Assembly (NCBI GenBank): GCA_030594665.1
Contig: JAUVET010000038.1
Span: 1-9,649 of the forward strand
Source: Methanosarcinaceae archaeon
Lineage (GTDB): Archaea; Halobacteriota; Methanosarcinia; Methanosarcinales; Methanosarcinaceae
Reading direction: 5' to 3'
DNA length: 9,649 bases
Within the stretch, counting starts at the first letter, position 1; every line of letters starts with the position of its first letter. The notes under the pieces were generated by a model. It saw only the letters and a program-made list of their open reading frames with translations, had not been told where the DNA came from and ran no database searches. A program made the position numbers and the translations under genes. This document shows, in pieces, positions 1 to 8,450 of this stretch.

Positions 1-3
1 AAT

Positions 4-190
4 AGCAACAGTAAAACAATAACAACAGTAAAACAATAACAACAGTAAAACAATAACAACAGTAAAACAATAACAACAGTAAAACAATAACAATAGTAAA
101 ACAATAACAATAGTAAAACAGTAACAACAGTAAAACAATGACAACAGTAAAACACTAACAACAGTAAAACAATGACAACTATAAAACATT
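4..190. repeat. 17-bp tandem repeat array, 11 copies, overlapping the ipk start
   Basis: The unit is AACAACAGTAAAACAAT. Eleven head-to-tail 17-bp copies run from 4 to 190, and four of them (21-88) are identical. Variation rises to the right: C to T in copies at 89 and 106, A to G at the first base of copies at 140 and 174, and a more decayed copy at 174-190. Degenerate CAACAATA-like sequence continues to about 213. The array probably extends beyond the left edge. The unit is not a multiple of three and has recurrent TAA codons, so it is not itself coding until the ipk ATG at 172. There are no spacers, so this is not CRISPR. The strand-biased composition (almost no G, few T) is striking. Confidence 0.95.
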
Positions 191-957
191 ACAACAATAC
201 AACAATAACAATTTTGAAGATAGGCGGCAGTATCATCACAGATAAGGATGCAAATGATGGCGCTGCAAATGATGATGAGATCAAGCGGATCGCAGGCGAG
301 ATATCCAAACATCATGGTAGGTTGATAATTGTTCACGGTGCGGGTTCATTCGGACATCCGCAGGCAAAGAGGTATGCATTAACTGAAAAGTTCGATGCTG
401 AGGGTGCGCTTATCACACATGTATCCGTTAAAACGCTCAATCGCATTGTCGTGGAATCCCTGAAGAATGCAGGAGTGAATGCTGTTGGGGTACACCCGAT
501 GGGCAGCACCGTGTGTGAAAATGGAAGGATTACGCAGATGTTTCTTGACAATATTCACCTGATGCTTGACAATGGGTTTGTACCTGTGCTGCATGGTGAT
601 GTGGTTATGGACACAAAACTCGGAACATCCGTCCTGTCGGGCGACCAGATAGTTCCGTATCTTGCAGTGCAACTCGGTGGTGCAAGGATTGGTATAGGAA
701 GTGCTAAAGATGGTGTGCTTGATGACAAAGGTGTCACTATTCCAACGATAACATCCACGAATTTCAAGGACATTAAAAAATACATTGGTGGTTCAGAAAG
801 CACTGATGTTACCGGTGGGATGCTCGGAAAGGTTGGTGAACTGTTAAAACTTTGCGAAACATCAAGTATCACTTCATACATATTCAATGCAGGAAAGTCC
901 GGTAATGTGTCAAGCTTTTTAGGCGGCGAGGACATTGGAACCGCGATAACAAAATGA
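172..957 (+). CDS. ipk: isopentenyl phosphate kinase (amino acid kinase superfamily)
   Basis: This is a cytosolic kinase that phosphorylates isopentenyl phosphate with ATP to give IPP, the last phosphorylation of the archaeal alternative mevalonate pathway. At 261 aa it has normal family length. Visible motifs are the nucleotide-binding Lys and Gly-rich start KIGGSIITDK (16-25), HGAGSFGH (55-62) whose last His matches the family catalytic histidine, HGDVV (141-145), SGDQIVPYL (156-164), and TDVTGGMLGKV (211-221) near the ATP site. The first 13 or so residues (MTTIKHYNNTTIT) precede the conserved beta strand and come from decayed 17-bp repeats. ATG 172 is the only ATG before the conserved core; an in-frame stop lies at 148-150. 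No Shine-Dalgarno is visible, so the start is the uncertain part. A DVDG-like segment expected in many relatives reads SAKDG (177-181). It is followed by fni, rnj and idsA on the same strand. The stop is TGA. Confidence 0.93.
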   Translation: MTTIKHYNNTTITILKIGGSIITDKDANDGAANDDEIKRIAGEISKHHGRLIIVHGAGSFGHPQAKRYALTEKFDAEGALITHVSVKTLNRIVVESLKNAGVNAVGVHPMGSTVCENGRITQMFLDNIHLMLDNGFVPVLHGDVVMDTKLGTSVLSGDQIVPYLAVQLGGARIGIGSAKDGVLDDKGVTIPTITSTNFKDIKKYIGGSESTDVTGGMLGKVGELLKLCETSSITSYIFNAGKSGNVSSFLGGEDIGTAITK

Positions 958-4938: not shown

Positions 4939-7593
4939 TCACTTATTATTTTCCAAAACAGCCTGCGCCGCCGCCAGTCTTGCGATTGGCACACGGTATG
5001 GGGAACAACTTACATAGTTGAGTCCGATCTTGTGCCCGAATTTGATCGATTGTGGATCTCCACCATGTTCCCCACAGATCCCGATCTTGAGATTCTTACG
5101 TGTGGATCGTCCCTTCTCAATTCCGATCTTGATAAGCTGCCCTACTCCTTCCTGGTCAAGTACTGCGAATGGGTCATTGTCAAGTATTCCGTGATCAACA
5201 TAATATGGCAGGAATTTGCCTGCATCATCCCTGCTGAACCCGAAAGCTGTCTGAGTCAGGTCATTTGTACCAAATGAGAAGAATTCAGCTTCTTCTGCAA
5301 TCTGGTCAGCAGTAATGGCAGCTCTTGGAAGTTCGATCATTGTACCGACAAGGTATTCCAGATCCACATTTCTTTTCTCGATCACAGATTCAGCCATGCG
5401 TATTGCATTTTTCCTTGTGGTTTTAAGTTCTTTAACATGACTTATAAGGGGTATCATTATTTCAGGGACAATGTTCATGCCCTCTGATTTGAGTTCACAT
5501 GCAGCTTCAATGATCGCTTCAACTTGCATATCATAGATCTCCGGATATGTGATCCCAAGGCGACATCCCCTGTGTCCGAGCATTGGATTGATCTCATGTA
5601 ACGCTTCTACACGTGCGATCACTTTCTTTACTTGTTCAATCTCTTTTCGATTCCCGCCTGCGGATTTGAGTTCCCTTAGTTTATTGGTAAGTTCTTCATG
5701 GTCCGGGAGAAATTCATGCAGTGGTGGGTCAAGAAGCCGGATGGTCACAGGGTATCCTTCCATTGCACGGAATATCCCTAAGAAATCACCTTTTTGCATT
5801 GGCAGGAGCTTTAATAGTGCTTTTTTTCTTGAAATTTCATTCTCTGCCATGATCATCTCGCGAACAGCAGGAATCCTGTCATCTCCAAAGAACATGTGTT
5901 CAGTTCTGCAAAGTCCAATACCCTCTGCACCGAAATCGCGTGCTACTGATGCATCGTTGGGCGTGTCTGCATTTGTTCTTACGCCAAGTGTGCGAACCTC
6001 ATCTGCCCATTCGAGTATTGTGGTAAGGTCATCGTTAACACCGGCTGTGATGAGTTCGACCTGCCCGATTATGACATTTCCGGTAGTTCCGTCAAGGGTA
6101 AGGTACTCGCCTTCGTTAATGGTGTATCCATTAACTGACAAAATACCTTTTTTCATGTTAATTGAAATATCGCCACATCCGGCAACGCATGGTTTACCCA
6201 TTCCTCTTGCAACAACGGCTGCATGTGAGGTCATGCCTCCACGGACTGTAAGTATACCTTCTGCCGCATTCATGCCGCCAATGTCCTCGGGGGATGTTTC
6301 AGTACGTACAAGTATTGTTTTCTCTCCGTCTTTTGCCATCTCTTCAGCATGTTCCGCGGTGAATACGACCTTGCCGACAGCCGCACCAGGTGAGGCAGGC
6401 AATCCATTTACGATAACTTCCAACTCTGCATCAGTGTCTATCATCGGATGCAACAATTGGTCGATCTGTTCAGGTTCGATCCGCAAAAGTGCAGTCTTTT
6501 TATCGATCAGTTTTTCATTCACCATATCAGTCGCGATCTTAACCGCAGCAGCTGCAGTTCGTTTTCCGTTTCTTGTCTGGAGCATGAAAAGTTTACCATT
6601 CTCGATAGTGAATTCAATATCCTGCATGTCCCTGAAATGATCCTCAAGTTTTTGATATATTTGAACTAATTTTTCATAATTTTCAGGCATCTTCTCTTTC
6701 AGGGTTTCAATAGGCTGTGGTGTCCTGATCCCGGCAACCACGTCTTCGCCCTGCGCATTGATAAGATATTCGCCAAAGAAGCGTTTTTCACCGTTTGCAG
6801 GGTCCCTGGTAAATGCTACGCCTGTGCCTGAATTGTTGTTCATATTTCCGTACACCATGGTCTGGACATTGACAGCAGTTCCCCAGTCACCCGGAATGTT
6901 GTTCAGACGCCTGTATGTGTTGGCACGCTGGTTGTTCCATGAACCGAAAACAGCATCAATGGACATCTGAAGTTGTTTTCTTGGATCTTGTGGGAAATCT
7001 TCACCTGTTCTTTTCTTGATCAAAACCTTGAACTTTTCAACCAGTTCTTTGAGTGCATCAATATCAAGCTCGGTATCAAGTTTGACTCCCTTCTCTTTTT
7101 TCACTTCATCTATTATGGATTCGAAATTTTCATATTCGATGCTAAGAACAACATCACCAAACATTGTGAGGAATCTGCGATAACTGTCATAGGCAAATCT
7201 CTCATTGTTGCTTTTGTGGACAAGTCCCATGACGGATCTATCGTTTAAACCTAAATTTAATACCGTGTCCATCATCCCGGGCATGGATACACGTGCACCT
7301 GAACGAACCGATAAAAGTAGCGGGTTTTCCGGATCTCCGAATTTTTTATTATTTAGTTTTTCAAGTTTGCCAATTGCTTCATTCATCTGTTTCATTAACC
7401 CATTCGGATACTGTTTATTTTCAAGATATAATAAACATACTTCAGTTGTTATTGTAAATCCGGATGGTACCGGAATTCCCAGATTTGCCATTTCAGCAAG
7501 ATTTGCACCTTTTCCACCAAGCAAGTTCTTCATGCTGTTTTTACCTTCAGTTTCACTATTTCCAAAAAAGTATACAAATTTTTGAGCTACCAC
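4939..7593 (-). CDS. ppdK: pyruvate, phosphate dikinase
   Basis: This cytosolic enzyme interconverts pyruvate + ATP + Pi with phosphoenolpyruvate + AMP + PPi, linking pyruvate to gluconeogenesis. I place the start at GTG 7593, seven bases after GGAGG (7605-7601). That gives 884 aa, the usual family length, and the conserved N-terminus KFVYFFGNSETEGK. The frame stays open to an ATG at 7887, but those 98 extra codons lie in a repeat-rich element and have no family counterpart. In order: the ATP-grasp domain with GGKGANLAEM (26-35) and SVRSGARVSMPGMMDT (95-110); the phosphohistidine domain with GGMTSHAAVVARG (452-464), where His457 carries the phosphate; the PEP/pyruvate TIM barrel with CRTEHMFF (562-569), IRLLDPPLHEFLP (618-630), GTNDLTQTAFGFSRDD (775-790) and the catalytic Cys840 in GICGEHGG. 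All key residues are present. It is transcribed towards idsA and stops with TGA. No partner regulatory kinase gene is in the window. Confidence 0.97.
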   Translation of the reverse strand: MVAQKFVYFFGNSETEGKNSMKNLLGGKGANLAEMANLGIPVPSGFTITTEVCLLYLENKQYPNGLMKQMNEAIGKLEKLNNKKFGDPENPLLLSVRSGARVSMPGMMDTVLNLGLNDRSVMGLVHKSNNERFAYDSYRRFLTMFGDVVLSIEYENFESIIDEVKKEKGVKLDTELDIDALKELVEKFKVLIKKRTGEDFPQDPRKQLQMSIDAVFGSWNNQRANTYRRLNNIPGDWGTAVNVQTMVYGNMNNNSGTGVAFTRDPANGEKRFFGEYLINAQGEDVVAGIRTPQPIETLKEKMPENYEKLVQIYQKLEDHFRDMQDIEFTIENGKLFMLQTRNGKRTAAAAVKIATDMVNEKLIDKKTALLRIEPEQIDQLLHPMIDTDAELEVIVNGLPASPGAAVGKVVFTAEHAEEMAKDGEKTILVRTETSPEDIGGMNAAEGILTVRGGMTSHAAVVARGMGKPCVAGCGDISINMKKGILSVNGYTINEGEYLTLDGTTGNVIIGQVELITAGVNDDLTTILEWADEVRTLGVRTNADTPNDASVARDFGAEGIGLCRTEHMFFGDDRIPAVREMIMAENEISRKKALLKLLPMQKGDFLGIFRAMEGYPVTIRLLDPPLHEFLPDHEELTNKLRELKSAGGNRKEIEQVKKVIARVEALHEINPMLGHRGCRLGITYPEIYDMQVEAIIEAACELKSEGMNIVPEIMIPLISHVKELKTTRKNAIRMAESVIEKRNVDLEYLVGTMIELPRAAITADQIAEEAEFFSFGTNDLTQTAFGFSRDDAGKFLPYYVDHGILDNDPFAVLDQEGVGQLIKIGIEKGRSTRKNLKIGICGEHGGDPQSIKFGHKIGLNYVSCSPYRVPIARLAAAQAVLENNK

Positions 7594-7600
7594 CAAATTT

Positions 7601-7605
7601 CCTCC
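7601..7605 (-). promoter_or_regulatory. Shine-Dalgarno GGAGG that fixes the ppdK start
   Basis: On the minus strand GGAGG is followed by seven bases and then GTG (7593-7591), the optimal spacing. The in-frame TTG at 7596-7594 would be only four bases away. The ATG at 7887 has no comparable site. This is the main reason for starting ppdK at 7593. Confidence 0.85.
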
Positions 7606-7697
7606 ACGGAGTGTTATTATATCATTAATGATAATTTTTCTGAGACTTTTTATTATCTTCCGGAATGGTTTGGAAAACCATGGGGAGCACACATGGG

Positions 7698-7741
7698 GAG
7701 CACAGAGGGACACAGAGAAAAAAGCAATGCCCTCTGTGCTC
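7698..7741. repeat. 12-bp perfect inverted repeat (central hairpin of the element)
   Basis: GAGCACAGAGGG (7698-7709) and CCCTCTGTGCTC (7730-7741) are perfect reverse complements around a 20-base loop. The loop contains another CACAGAG (7711-7717). A third compatible strand, CCTCTGTG at 7800-7807, could replace the right arm, so two mutually exclusive stems are possible. Confidence 0.8.
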
Positions 7742-7775
7742 TTTGTGTCCTGCACGCTTTGCGGGCGTAGCAGAT

Positions 7776-7798
7776 ACTCACCTACTACGTAGTTGAGT
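7776..7798. repeat. ACTACGTAGT palindrome with flanking ACTCA/TGAGT arms
   Basis: A perfect 10-bp palindrome ACTACGTAGT (7784-7793) is extended by ACTCA (7776-7780) and TGAGT (7794-7798), with a three-base CCT bulge at 7781-7783. It forms the middle hairpin or cruciform of the element. Confidence 0.6.
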
Positions 7799-7823
7799 GC
7801 CTCTGTGGTTGATTTTCTTTGCT

Positions 7824-7882
7824 GTACATAATCTATGAGATCATGTACTCCAGGTAAATGCGACCGGAAAGTGCATTTACTT
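7824..7882. repeat. two adjacent hairpins near the right end of the element
   Basis: The first is GTACATAATC (7824-7833) against GATCATGTAC (7839-7848), nine of ten pairs, with a TATGA loop. The second is GTAAATGC (7854-7861) against GCATTTAC (7873-7880), eight perfect pairs, extendable by two weaker pairs to 7852-7882, with an 11-base loop. On the minus strand both would be the first structures in any long ppdK leader. Confidence 0.65.
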
Positions 7883-7904
7883 ACCATGATTTATTTCATT
7901 CAGA

Positions 7905-7937
7905 ATATATAAAAAGTCTCATTTTTTTATATATATT
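7905..7937 (-). promoter_or_regulatory. ppdK: candidate ppdK promoter region with two TATA boxes
   Basis: Read on the minus strand there are two archaeal TATA-like stretches: TATATATAAAA around 7935-7925, outside the inverted-repeat element, and TTTTTATATAT at 7915-7905, inside its right terminal repeat. With the usual spacing of about 26 bases, transcripts would begin near 7905 or 7883. Either gives a 5' leader of roughly 290-310 nt covering the whole element. No stronger TATA box is visible between the element and the ppdK start. The AT tract is nearly symmetrical, so it could also fire rightward. Confidence 0.4.
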
Positions 7938-7980
7938 GACAATAAATTGTTAGCCTCAAAAGGTGTTATTTCATATTTAA

Positions 7981-8005
7981 GGTTGTGGTTTGAGTGAACT
8001 ACACC
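7981..8005. repeat. hairpin in the ppdK-gar1 divergent region
   Basis: GGT (7981-7983), one bulged T, and GTGGTT (7985-7990) pair with AACTAC (7997-8002) and ACC (8003-8005) around a six-base TGAGTG loop, including one G-U pair. It lies in the 7922-8186 stretch, which otherwise is AT-rich, without a supported gene, and carries the two opposing promoter regions. Function unknown; it could be an operator or part of an untranslated RNA. Confidence 0.4.
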
Positions 8006-8186: not shown

Positions 8187-8450
8187 ATGAAAAGACTTGG
8201 AACTGTTTTAAACGTGTCAGCACCTCGGGGTTTGATTGTTCGGGGTGATAAACCAGAATTGTCCGGATCCAAACCTGCGAATAAAGTACCTAAACTAAAT
8301 TCGGGTGTATTGAACAAATCTGTTAAGCAAATTGGAAAAGTAAGTGGTATAATCGGACCTGTGGATCACCCATACATCTACGTTAAATTGTCAAATGGTG
8401 CAGATCCAAAACAACATATCCACGTAGGTGAGCGTGTTTATGTTCTATGA
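8187..8450 (+). CDS. gar1: H/ACA ribonucleoprotein protein Gar1
   Basis: Gar1 binds the catalytic Cbf5 subunit of H/ACA guide RNPs and helps substrate RNA loading and turnover during rRNA pseudouridylation. The 87-aa product is typical of archaeal Gar1, which is only the core domain without the RGG tails of eukaryotes. The signature is GKVSGIIGPVDHPYIYVK (50-67), with the N-terminal strand RLGTVLNVSAPRGLIVRG (3-20) and a C-terminal GERVYVL forming the small beta barrel. A Lys/Ser/Asn-rich linker (about 22-48) sits between the strands. ATG 8187 follows GAGAGG (8176-8181). An overlapping ATG at 8183 is in another frame and soon stops. It is followed 178 bp downstream by tfb, a pairing I recall as conserved in euryarchaea. 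The stop is TGA. Confidence 0.92.
   Translation: MKRLGTVLNVSAPRGLIVRGDKPELSGSKPANKVPKLNSGVLNKSVKQIGKVSGIIGPVDHPYIYVKLSNGADPKQHIHVGERVYVL

Follow-up and report, generated by a model that had tools for sequence, protein, structure and literature searches.

The hairpin-rich segment upstream of ppdK in the window (the whole stretch of 9,649 nucleotides that was analyzed, from a Methanosarcinaceae archaeon) is very probably a 279-bp composite MITE, which a Mutator-superfamily (IS256-like) DDE transposase acting in trans brought into the ppdK 5' leader. Based on the copies, autonomous elements, duplications and empty sites described below, the transposase would be encoded by an archaeal insertion sequence that is about 1.6 kb long and has the terminal repeats of the MITE, and the insertion duplicated 8 bp of the target. 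The main reading of the initial annotation, a non-autonomous MITE-like element, was supported by dispersed copies, empty ppdK sites and a matching autonomous element.

The repeat search of the window returned the 13-bp perfect terminal inverted repeat reported initially (pair I5, 7641-7653 / 7909-7921). Since copies elsewhere start with GAGAC, the outermost T/A pair of this repeat was assigned to the flanking duplication, and the borders, at first placed at 7641 and 7921, each move in by one base. The MITE thus occupies positions 7642..7920, with a 12-bp perfect end repeat, GAGACTTTTTAT, on the plus strand at 7642..7653 (left) and on the minus strand at 7909..7920 (right); these ends are common to dispersed copies in related genomes. 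Among the open reading frames of the window no transposase-like frame was found within 7642-7920, in agreement with the absence of a transposase noted before, and no Rfam family reached its gathering score anywhere in the window. The base composition is unlike that of the flanks, as had been claimed: GC is 0.48-0.52 in the centre of the element (windows starting at 7650 and 7700) versus 0.25-0.29 in the nearest flanking windows, and is back up to 0.45 deeper inside ppdK. With a predicted free energy of -104.6 kcal/mol (z -8.35), the segment folds as RNA more stably than any of 200 shuffles.

The element is flanked by ATTTTTCT (7634..7641) and ATTTTTTT (7921..7928), which are identical at seven of eight positions. 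This pair had been proposed as a possible 8-bp target duplication with one mismatch, and its length is backed by the family. Pairs of ends separated by 35-330 bp in the fetched loci were taken as candidate copies; with overlaps and identical elements removed they numbered 60, a set which contains some chance pairs and may include related insertions at one ancestral site. The copy in the window stands outside this set, its right end having seven mismatches to the search pattern (limit six). Flank matches of exactly 8 bp, with one mismatch or none, were found in 33 of the 60 candidates (25 perfect and eight with one mismatch), as compared with a mean of 0.78 and a maximum of 4 in 300 when the pairing of flanks was shuffled. 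Duplications of 7 bp and 9 bp were seen in 5/60 and 1/60, respectively, and no 8-bp duplication was found in 27/60, chance pairs being among the 60. The duplicated 8-mers are AT-rich (0.75 versus 0.62-0.63 in the adjoining 12-mers). Because its duplication and ends are imperfect, the insertion in the window is not fresh. Thirteen sites had enough flank and a duplication of 7/8 or better, and 12 of them were located outside crude gene calls (open frames of at least 100 codons), while random positions fell inside in 70% and outside in 30% of cases; the ppdK insert fits this intergenic insertion habit of the MITE family.

The sequence of ppdK places the window among Methanosarcinaceae/ANME-3 MAGs, with loci L001-L007 being 86-92% identical; L004 carries the label HMMV ANME3_9, while L005 and L006 are labelled Methanoperedenaceae. 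Dispersed copies were sought in relatives, as the initial annotation had suggested, and many with the same ends were found in related genomes. The 281-bp query matched seven of the ten genomes behind L001-L010, G003 and G008 being matched in the middle part only and not at the ends. The end pattern GAGACTTTTTATTATCTTCC, allowing three mismatches, gave 112 matches in five of the seven genomes, and its reversed control gave one each in G002 and G006. A basal copy of 154 bp matched 81 of the 185 genomes of one whole order, a figure which is not the number of genomes with the MITE, as scoring covered the best four candidates of each genome and some matches are to the core (33-115) without ends. 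At L097, L152, L154, L177 and L178 the same MITE ends enclose another core, which is made of CGCGGATGAACGCAGAT-type units, so that two or more types of palindrome are found between these ends.

An autonomous partner was identified, as two halves in G004 and as complete elements elsewhere in the order. In G004, which has transposase fragments only, locus L143 lies at a contig edge and shows the end GAGACTTTTTATTATTTTCAGGT and then residues 1-277 of a transposase; the last 185 residues are encoded at L142, on another contig, bordered by the same end. The two loci are two halves of one transposase type, each adjoining the same 23-bp end. A protein search with this transposase gave 225 homologues, many of those among the best 120 of the 225 being 428-442 amino acids long, and matches, several of them weak or fragmentary, were present in 47 of the 185 genomes of the order. 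Both ends were examined in eight autonomous elements (L188-L194 and L197), three of which have perfect 8-bp duplications (TGATTCAA in L191, TACATTTG in L192 and TGAAATAA in L194) and five none. Past the first 15-18 bases, the ends of the MITE and of the autonomous elements resemble each other without being identical. Because these ends recur in insertion sequences elsewhere in the order, together with 8-bp duplications and a Mutator-superfamily transposase, the element is assigned as a MITE that would be moved in trans by the partner transposase. The full transposase had no match in G001, G002, G003, G006 and G007 (the closest relatives besides G004 and G005; fragmentary assemblies), and in G002 one end runs into ATGGCAAAAGGTAAT, with a transposase-like start codon, at a contig edge. 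As to viral carriers, four viral-contig stretches matched a pattern and none of the four encoded a relative of the partner transposase.

The signature of the Mutator superfamily is a DDE catalytic triad with C/D-x2-H. Residues D176, D256, E373 and the C277-x2-H280 motif were invariant in all 28 aligned homologues (28 of the best 120 of 225), and D176, D256, E373, C277 and H280 are probably catalytic. An AlphaFold2 model of the transposase (mean pLDDT 74.6) had its best solved-structure match in the transposase chains of ISCth4, an IS256-family element (6xgx, 6xg8 and 6xgw; E 3.5e-10, TM 0.38-0.50), yet the identity is 14-16%. Four partner proteins scored 21-28 bits with NCBIfam IS256 (cut-off 150), and three of the four scored 15-23 bits with NCBIfam ISH6 (cut-off 240), P0002 giving no score. 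With Pfam MULE (cut-off 27.6 bits) the four gave 22.8, 23.4, 32.1 and 31.9 bits, two below and two above. Because the scores are far below the NCBIfam cut-offs, the partner is set apart from IS256 and ISH6 proper, and it most likely belongs to the Mutator superfamily but to none of the curated IS families tested. IS256-type elements move by copy-out/paste-in through a circle and, by analogy, the element may have moved in the same manner. Circles of IS256 and other Mutator-like elements have been described (PMC3942029, section 11). The passages of that paper on p-MULT 1-5, which include IS256 and ISH6, describe features like those of the partner, namely DDE with C-x2-H, ends of the same kind and a terminal C; they also report duplications of 8 or 9 bp for Mutator-like prokaryotic transposases (8 bp for the partner here) and AT-rich targets for ISH6, as seen for the MITE family here (PMC3942029).

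On one side of the segment is ppdK, on the minus strand, and on the other a divergent reading frame that begins at 8187. The gene, presumably for pyruvate phosphate dikinase (a name taken from the initial annotation and from knowledge of the family), was placed at 4939..7593 on the minus strand, with its start at GTG 7593 or TTG 7596, based upon the open frame, protein matches of relatives and the leader alignment. Upstream of it are the ribosome-binding site GGAGG (7601..7605, minus strand) and a promoter-like BRE/TATA sequence, AACCACAACCTTAAATATG (7972..7990, minus strand), which is conserved upstream of ppdK. The initial annotation had suggested comparing the upstream regions of ppdK in relatives. 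With the element and one duplication copy taken out, the leader aligned with those of all ten relatives (L001-L010) and the insert was present in none of them; the alignment is loose at the insertion site for L008-L010, and L005 begins inside the promoter region. Conserved in the aligned leaders are the promoter-like CCACAACCTTAAATA region and GGAGG, the latter in 10/10 relatives. The insert stands between the two, with the TATA-like box about 50 nt upstream and GGAGG 36 nt downstream of it, which upholds the proposed insertion between a putative promoter and the ribosome site.

On the minus strand, the ppdK frame (4939-7887) runs without a stop codon across the whole insert as far as ATG 7887. 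The close relatives L001-L007 match from residue 1 or 4 of the protein starting at 7593, and the ribosome site and start of the relatives align at the 7593 start. Automatic annotation could wrongly extend the ppdK protein by about 98 residues, up to ATG 7887. At the other end of the window (1-211), a tandem array of the 17-bp unit AATAACAACAGTAAAAC (12.5 copies, 90% matches) reaches the start of a kinase-like frame at 172-957, and it may carry the start region of this kinase-like gene.

Given transcription into the leader, the insert would add 287 nt to the ppdK transcript. For the added RNA the prediction is a long stem that bears side hairpins and is closed by pairing of the terminal repeats, and in the predicted leader fold the element is its own closed domain. 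Because the promoter-like box and the ribosome site are outside the element, the longer leader would likely be tolerated, and any effect on mRNA stability or translation would be moderate at most; this appears to be the likeliest status of the insert. The strong predicted fold and the position in the leader would also suit a native structured regulatory RNA of ppdK, the alternative put forward in the initial annotation. That alternative is refuted, because no aligned relative has the segment at ppdK; there is no Rfam match, copies stand at other genes, and its probability is close to nil. Covariation among 25 basal copies was weak, with double changes in 3 of 30 predicted pairs (term -0.62 kcal/mol), and because the iterated units make the alignment uncertain, this result is weak either way. 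A MITE which arrived by transposition and was later adopted as a regulatory leader of ppdK, for instance through mRNA protection or translation tuning by the hairpin, is also quite improbable. Such adoption would be consistent with an insert downstream of a promoter-like box, with a fold far more stable than its shuffles and with the tendency of MITEs of this set to land mostly between genes. However, the insert is found in one sequence only, the ten relatives being without it, and such stability is expected of any palindromic MITE copy.

The interior of the element is composite. In the basal MITE, of about 150 bp, two ends enclose an iterated CACAGAG palindrome. Alignment of the copy in the window with a basal one, L083, shows that it has gained two long blocks and a duplication of 13 bp. 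The palindrome core was placed at 7672..7810, with approximate borders. Its strongest stem is 7698-7709 / 7730-7741, the 13-bp tandem duplication (two copies of CATGGGGAGCACA, 7679..7704) is absent from the basal copies aligned, and its second arm is interrupted by repeat A, a twin hairpin at 7751..7799. Repeat B (7823..7884, borders within a few bases) is one unit with two hairpins. The internal hairpins reported initially stand as far as the strong fold is concerned, but they belong to other palindromic repeats, themselves dispersed, that are nested within the MITE.

Each of these modules was also found apart from the MITE ends. The core palindrome was without them in 16 of the 17 loci L226-L242, as judged by eye (L239 has an end), these loci having been picked mostly for matches without ends. 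The pattern of repeat A occurred in 10 of 21 genomes and its reversed control in none of the 21. A CRCAGAG/CRCAGAT-type unit was present in the flank of 17 of 20 A copies, versus 6% of random positions, and the other three showed CGCAAAG by eye; the 20 copies were chosen before the flanks were examined, and some were already matches of the 281-bp query. A MITE end lay within the fetched stretch in one of the 20. Tandem runs of three and four A copies are present at L258 and L260, respectively; by eye, these two loci, which are in two genomes, have the same flanks and a similar gene start downstream, so that copy number appears to change at one site. Repeat B is in tandem at several G004 loci (L246-L252, by eye). 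At L251 an inverted pair, AGACTGTCGGAAAAGT / ACTTTTCCGACAGTCT, adjoins a repeat-B unit and perhaps belongs to a second MITE family (by eye).

The separate occurrence of core, A and B would fit a stepwise history, in which a MITE came first to ppdK, A and B were then inserted locally, and the composite never moved. This is unlikely, since the same modules are in the same places at a second G004 site, L161, with ends, core, A and B (one end decayed). At a third site, L102 (G004), ends, core and B are accompanied by a 7/8 duplication, and L089 has core and A with a perfect 8-bp duplication. These sites suggest that the composites move as one unit, as expected for the composite MITE proposed here. 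At L166 (340-560), a MITE copy has a core arm grown to about eight CACAGAGGG-type units, resembling a minisatellite. A minisatellite-bearing MITE of Porphyromonas gingivalis is said to contain iterated short units in the same way, a likeness of description.

The core reaches beyond the archaea. A 17-bp piece of it, allowing one mismatch, was found in 9 of 28 bacterial genomes hand-picked from those behind L019-L080, and its reversed control in none of the 28. A clear second arm was seen in about five of the ten bacterial contexts viewed (L266, L267, L268, L270 and L275), the rest being without one. Four records of a plasmid collection matched the stand-alone core, namely two Gemmatirosa plasmids, in which most of it is matched (77-78%), and two Bacteroides plasmids, in which a short part is. 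The core-like copies which bear on a cross-domain reading are those of Methanosarcinales, Trichlorobacter, Brocadia-type planctomycetes and the Gemmatirosa plasmids. RAYT (Y1) transposases mobilize REP elements, which are small palindromes that occur many times between genes. Core, A and B are likewise many-copy palindromes, and A is a twin hairpin; however, none of the three was found in the fetched flank of any of 26 Y1 loci (nine of ten genomes with Y1 matches), and a Y1 transposase was rejected as their mover. A palindrome of Geobacter metallireducens, GRCGTAGCGCTGCTACGCC, given in a passage of PMC2700814, faintly resembles one hairpin of A. Tentatively, and with the balance somewhat against it, the CRCAGAG/CRCAGAT palindrome and its inner A may be an undescribed, cross-domain class of dispersing repeat, for which neither terminal repeats nor a linked transposase were found, with A nested between units by rule, a variable number of units and Mutator-type MITEs as one vehicle.

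Like the prokaryotic MITEs reviewed in the passages of PMC10969869 devoted to them, the element is short and non-coding, has terminal inverted repeats and target duplications, belongs to a family of numerous, mainly intergenic copies and has ends common to an autonomous element; it differs in that its interior is a nest of other dispersed palindromes. Those passages name no methanogen or ANME example (PMC10969869). In the open-access papers searched, which leave out most subscription papers, no description was found of the MITE and its ends or of the repeats core, A and B. MITEs and Mutator-type insertion sequences are known kinds of element, to which the family described here adds unusual nested palindromes. 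These pose the question of how iterated-unit hairpins spread without visible ends or enzymes. For ppdK, a striking leader structure is explained as a transposon insertion, an ordinary kind of genome parasite. For ANME-3 and the Methanosarcinales, a MITE family is defined together with its matching autonomous element, target size and insertion habit, which helps to annotate the genomes of uncultured methanotrophs, where such inserts could pass for riboswitch-like RNAs.
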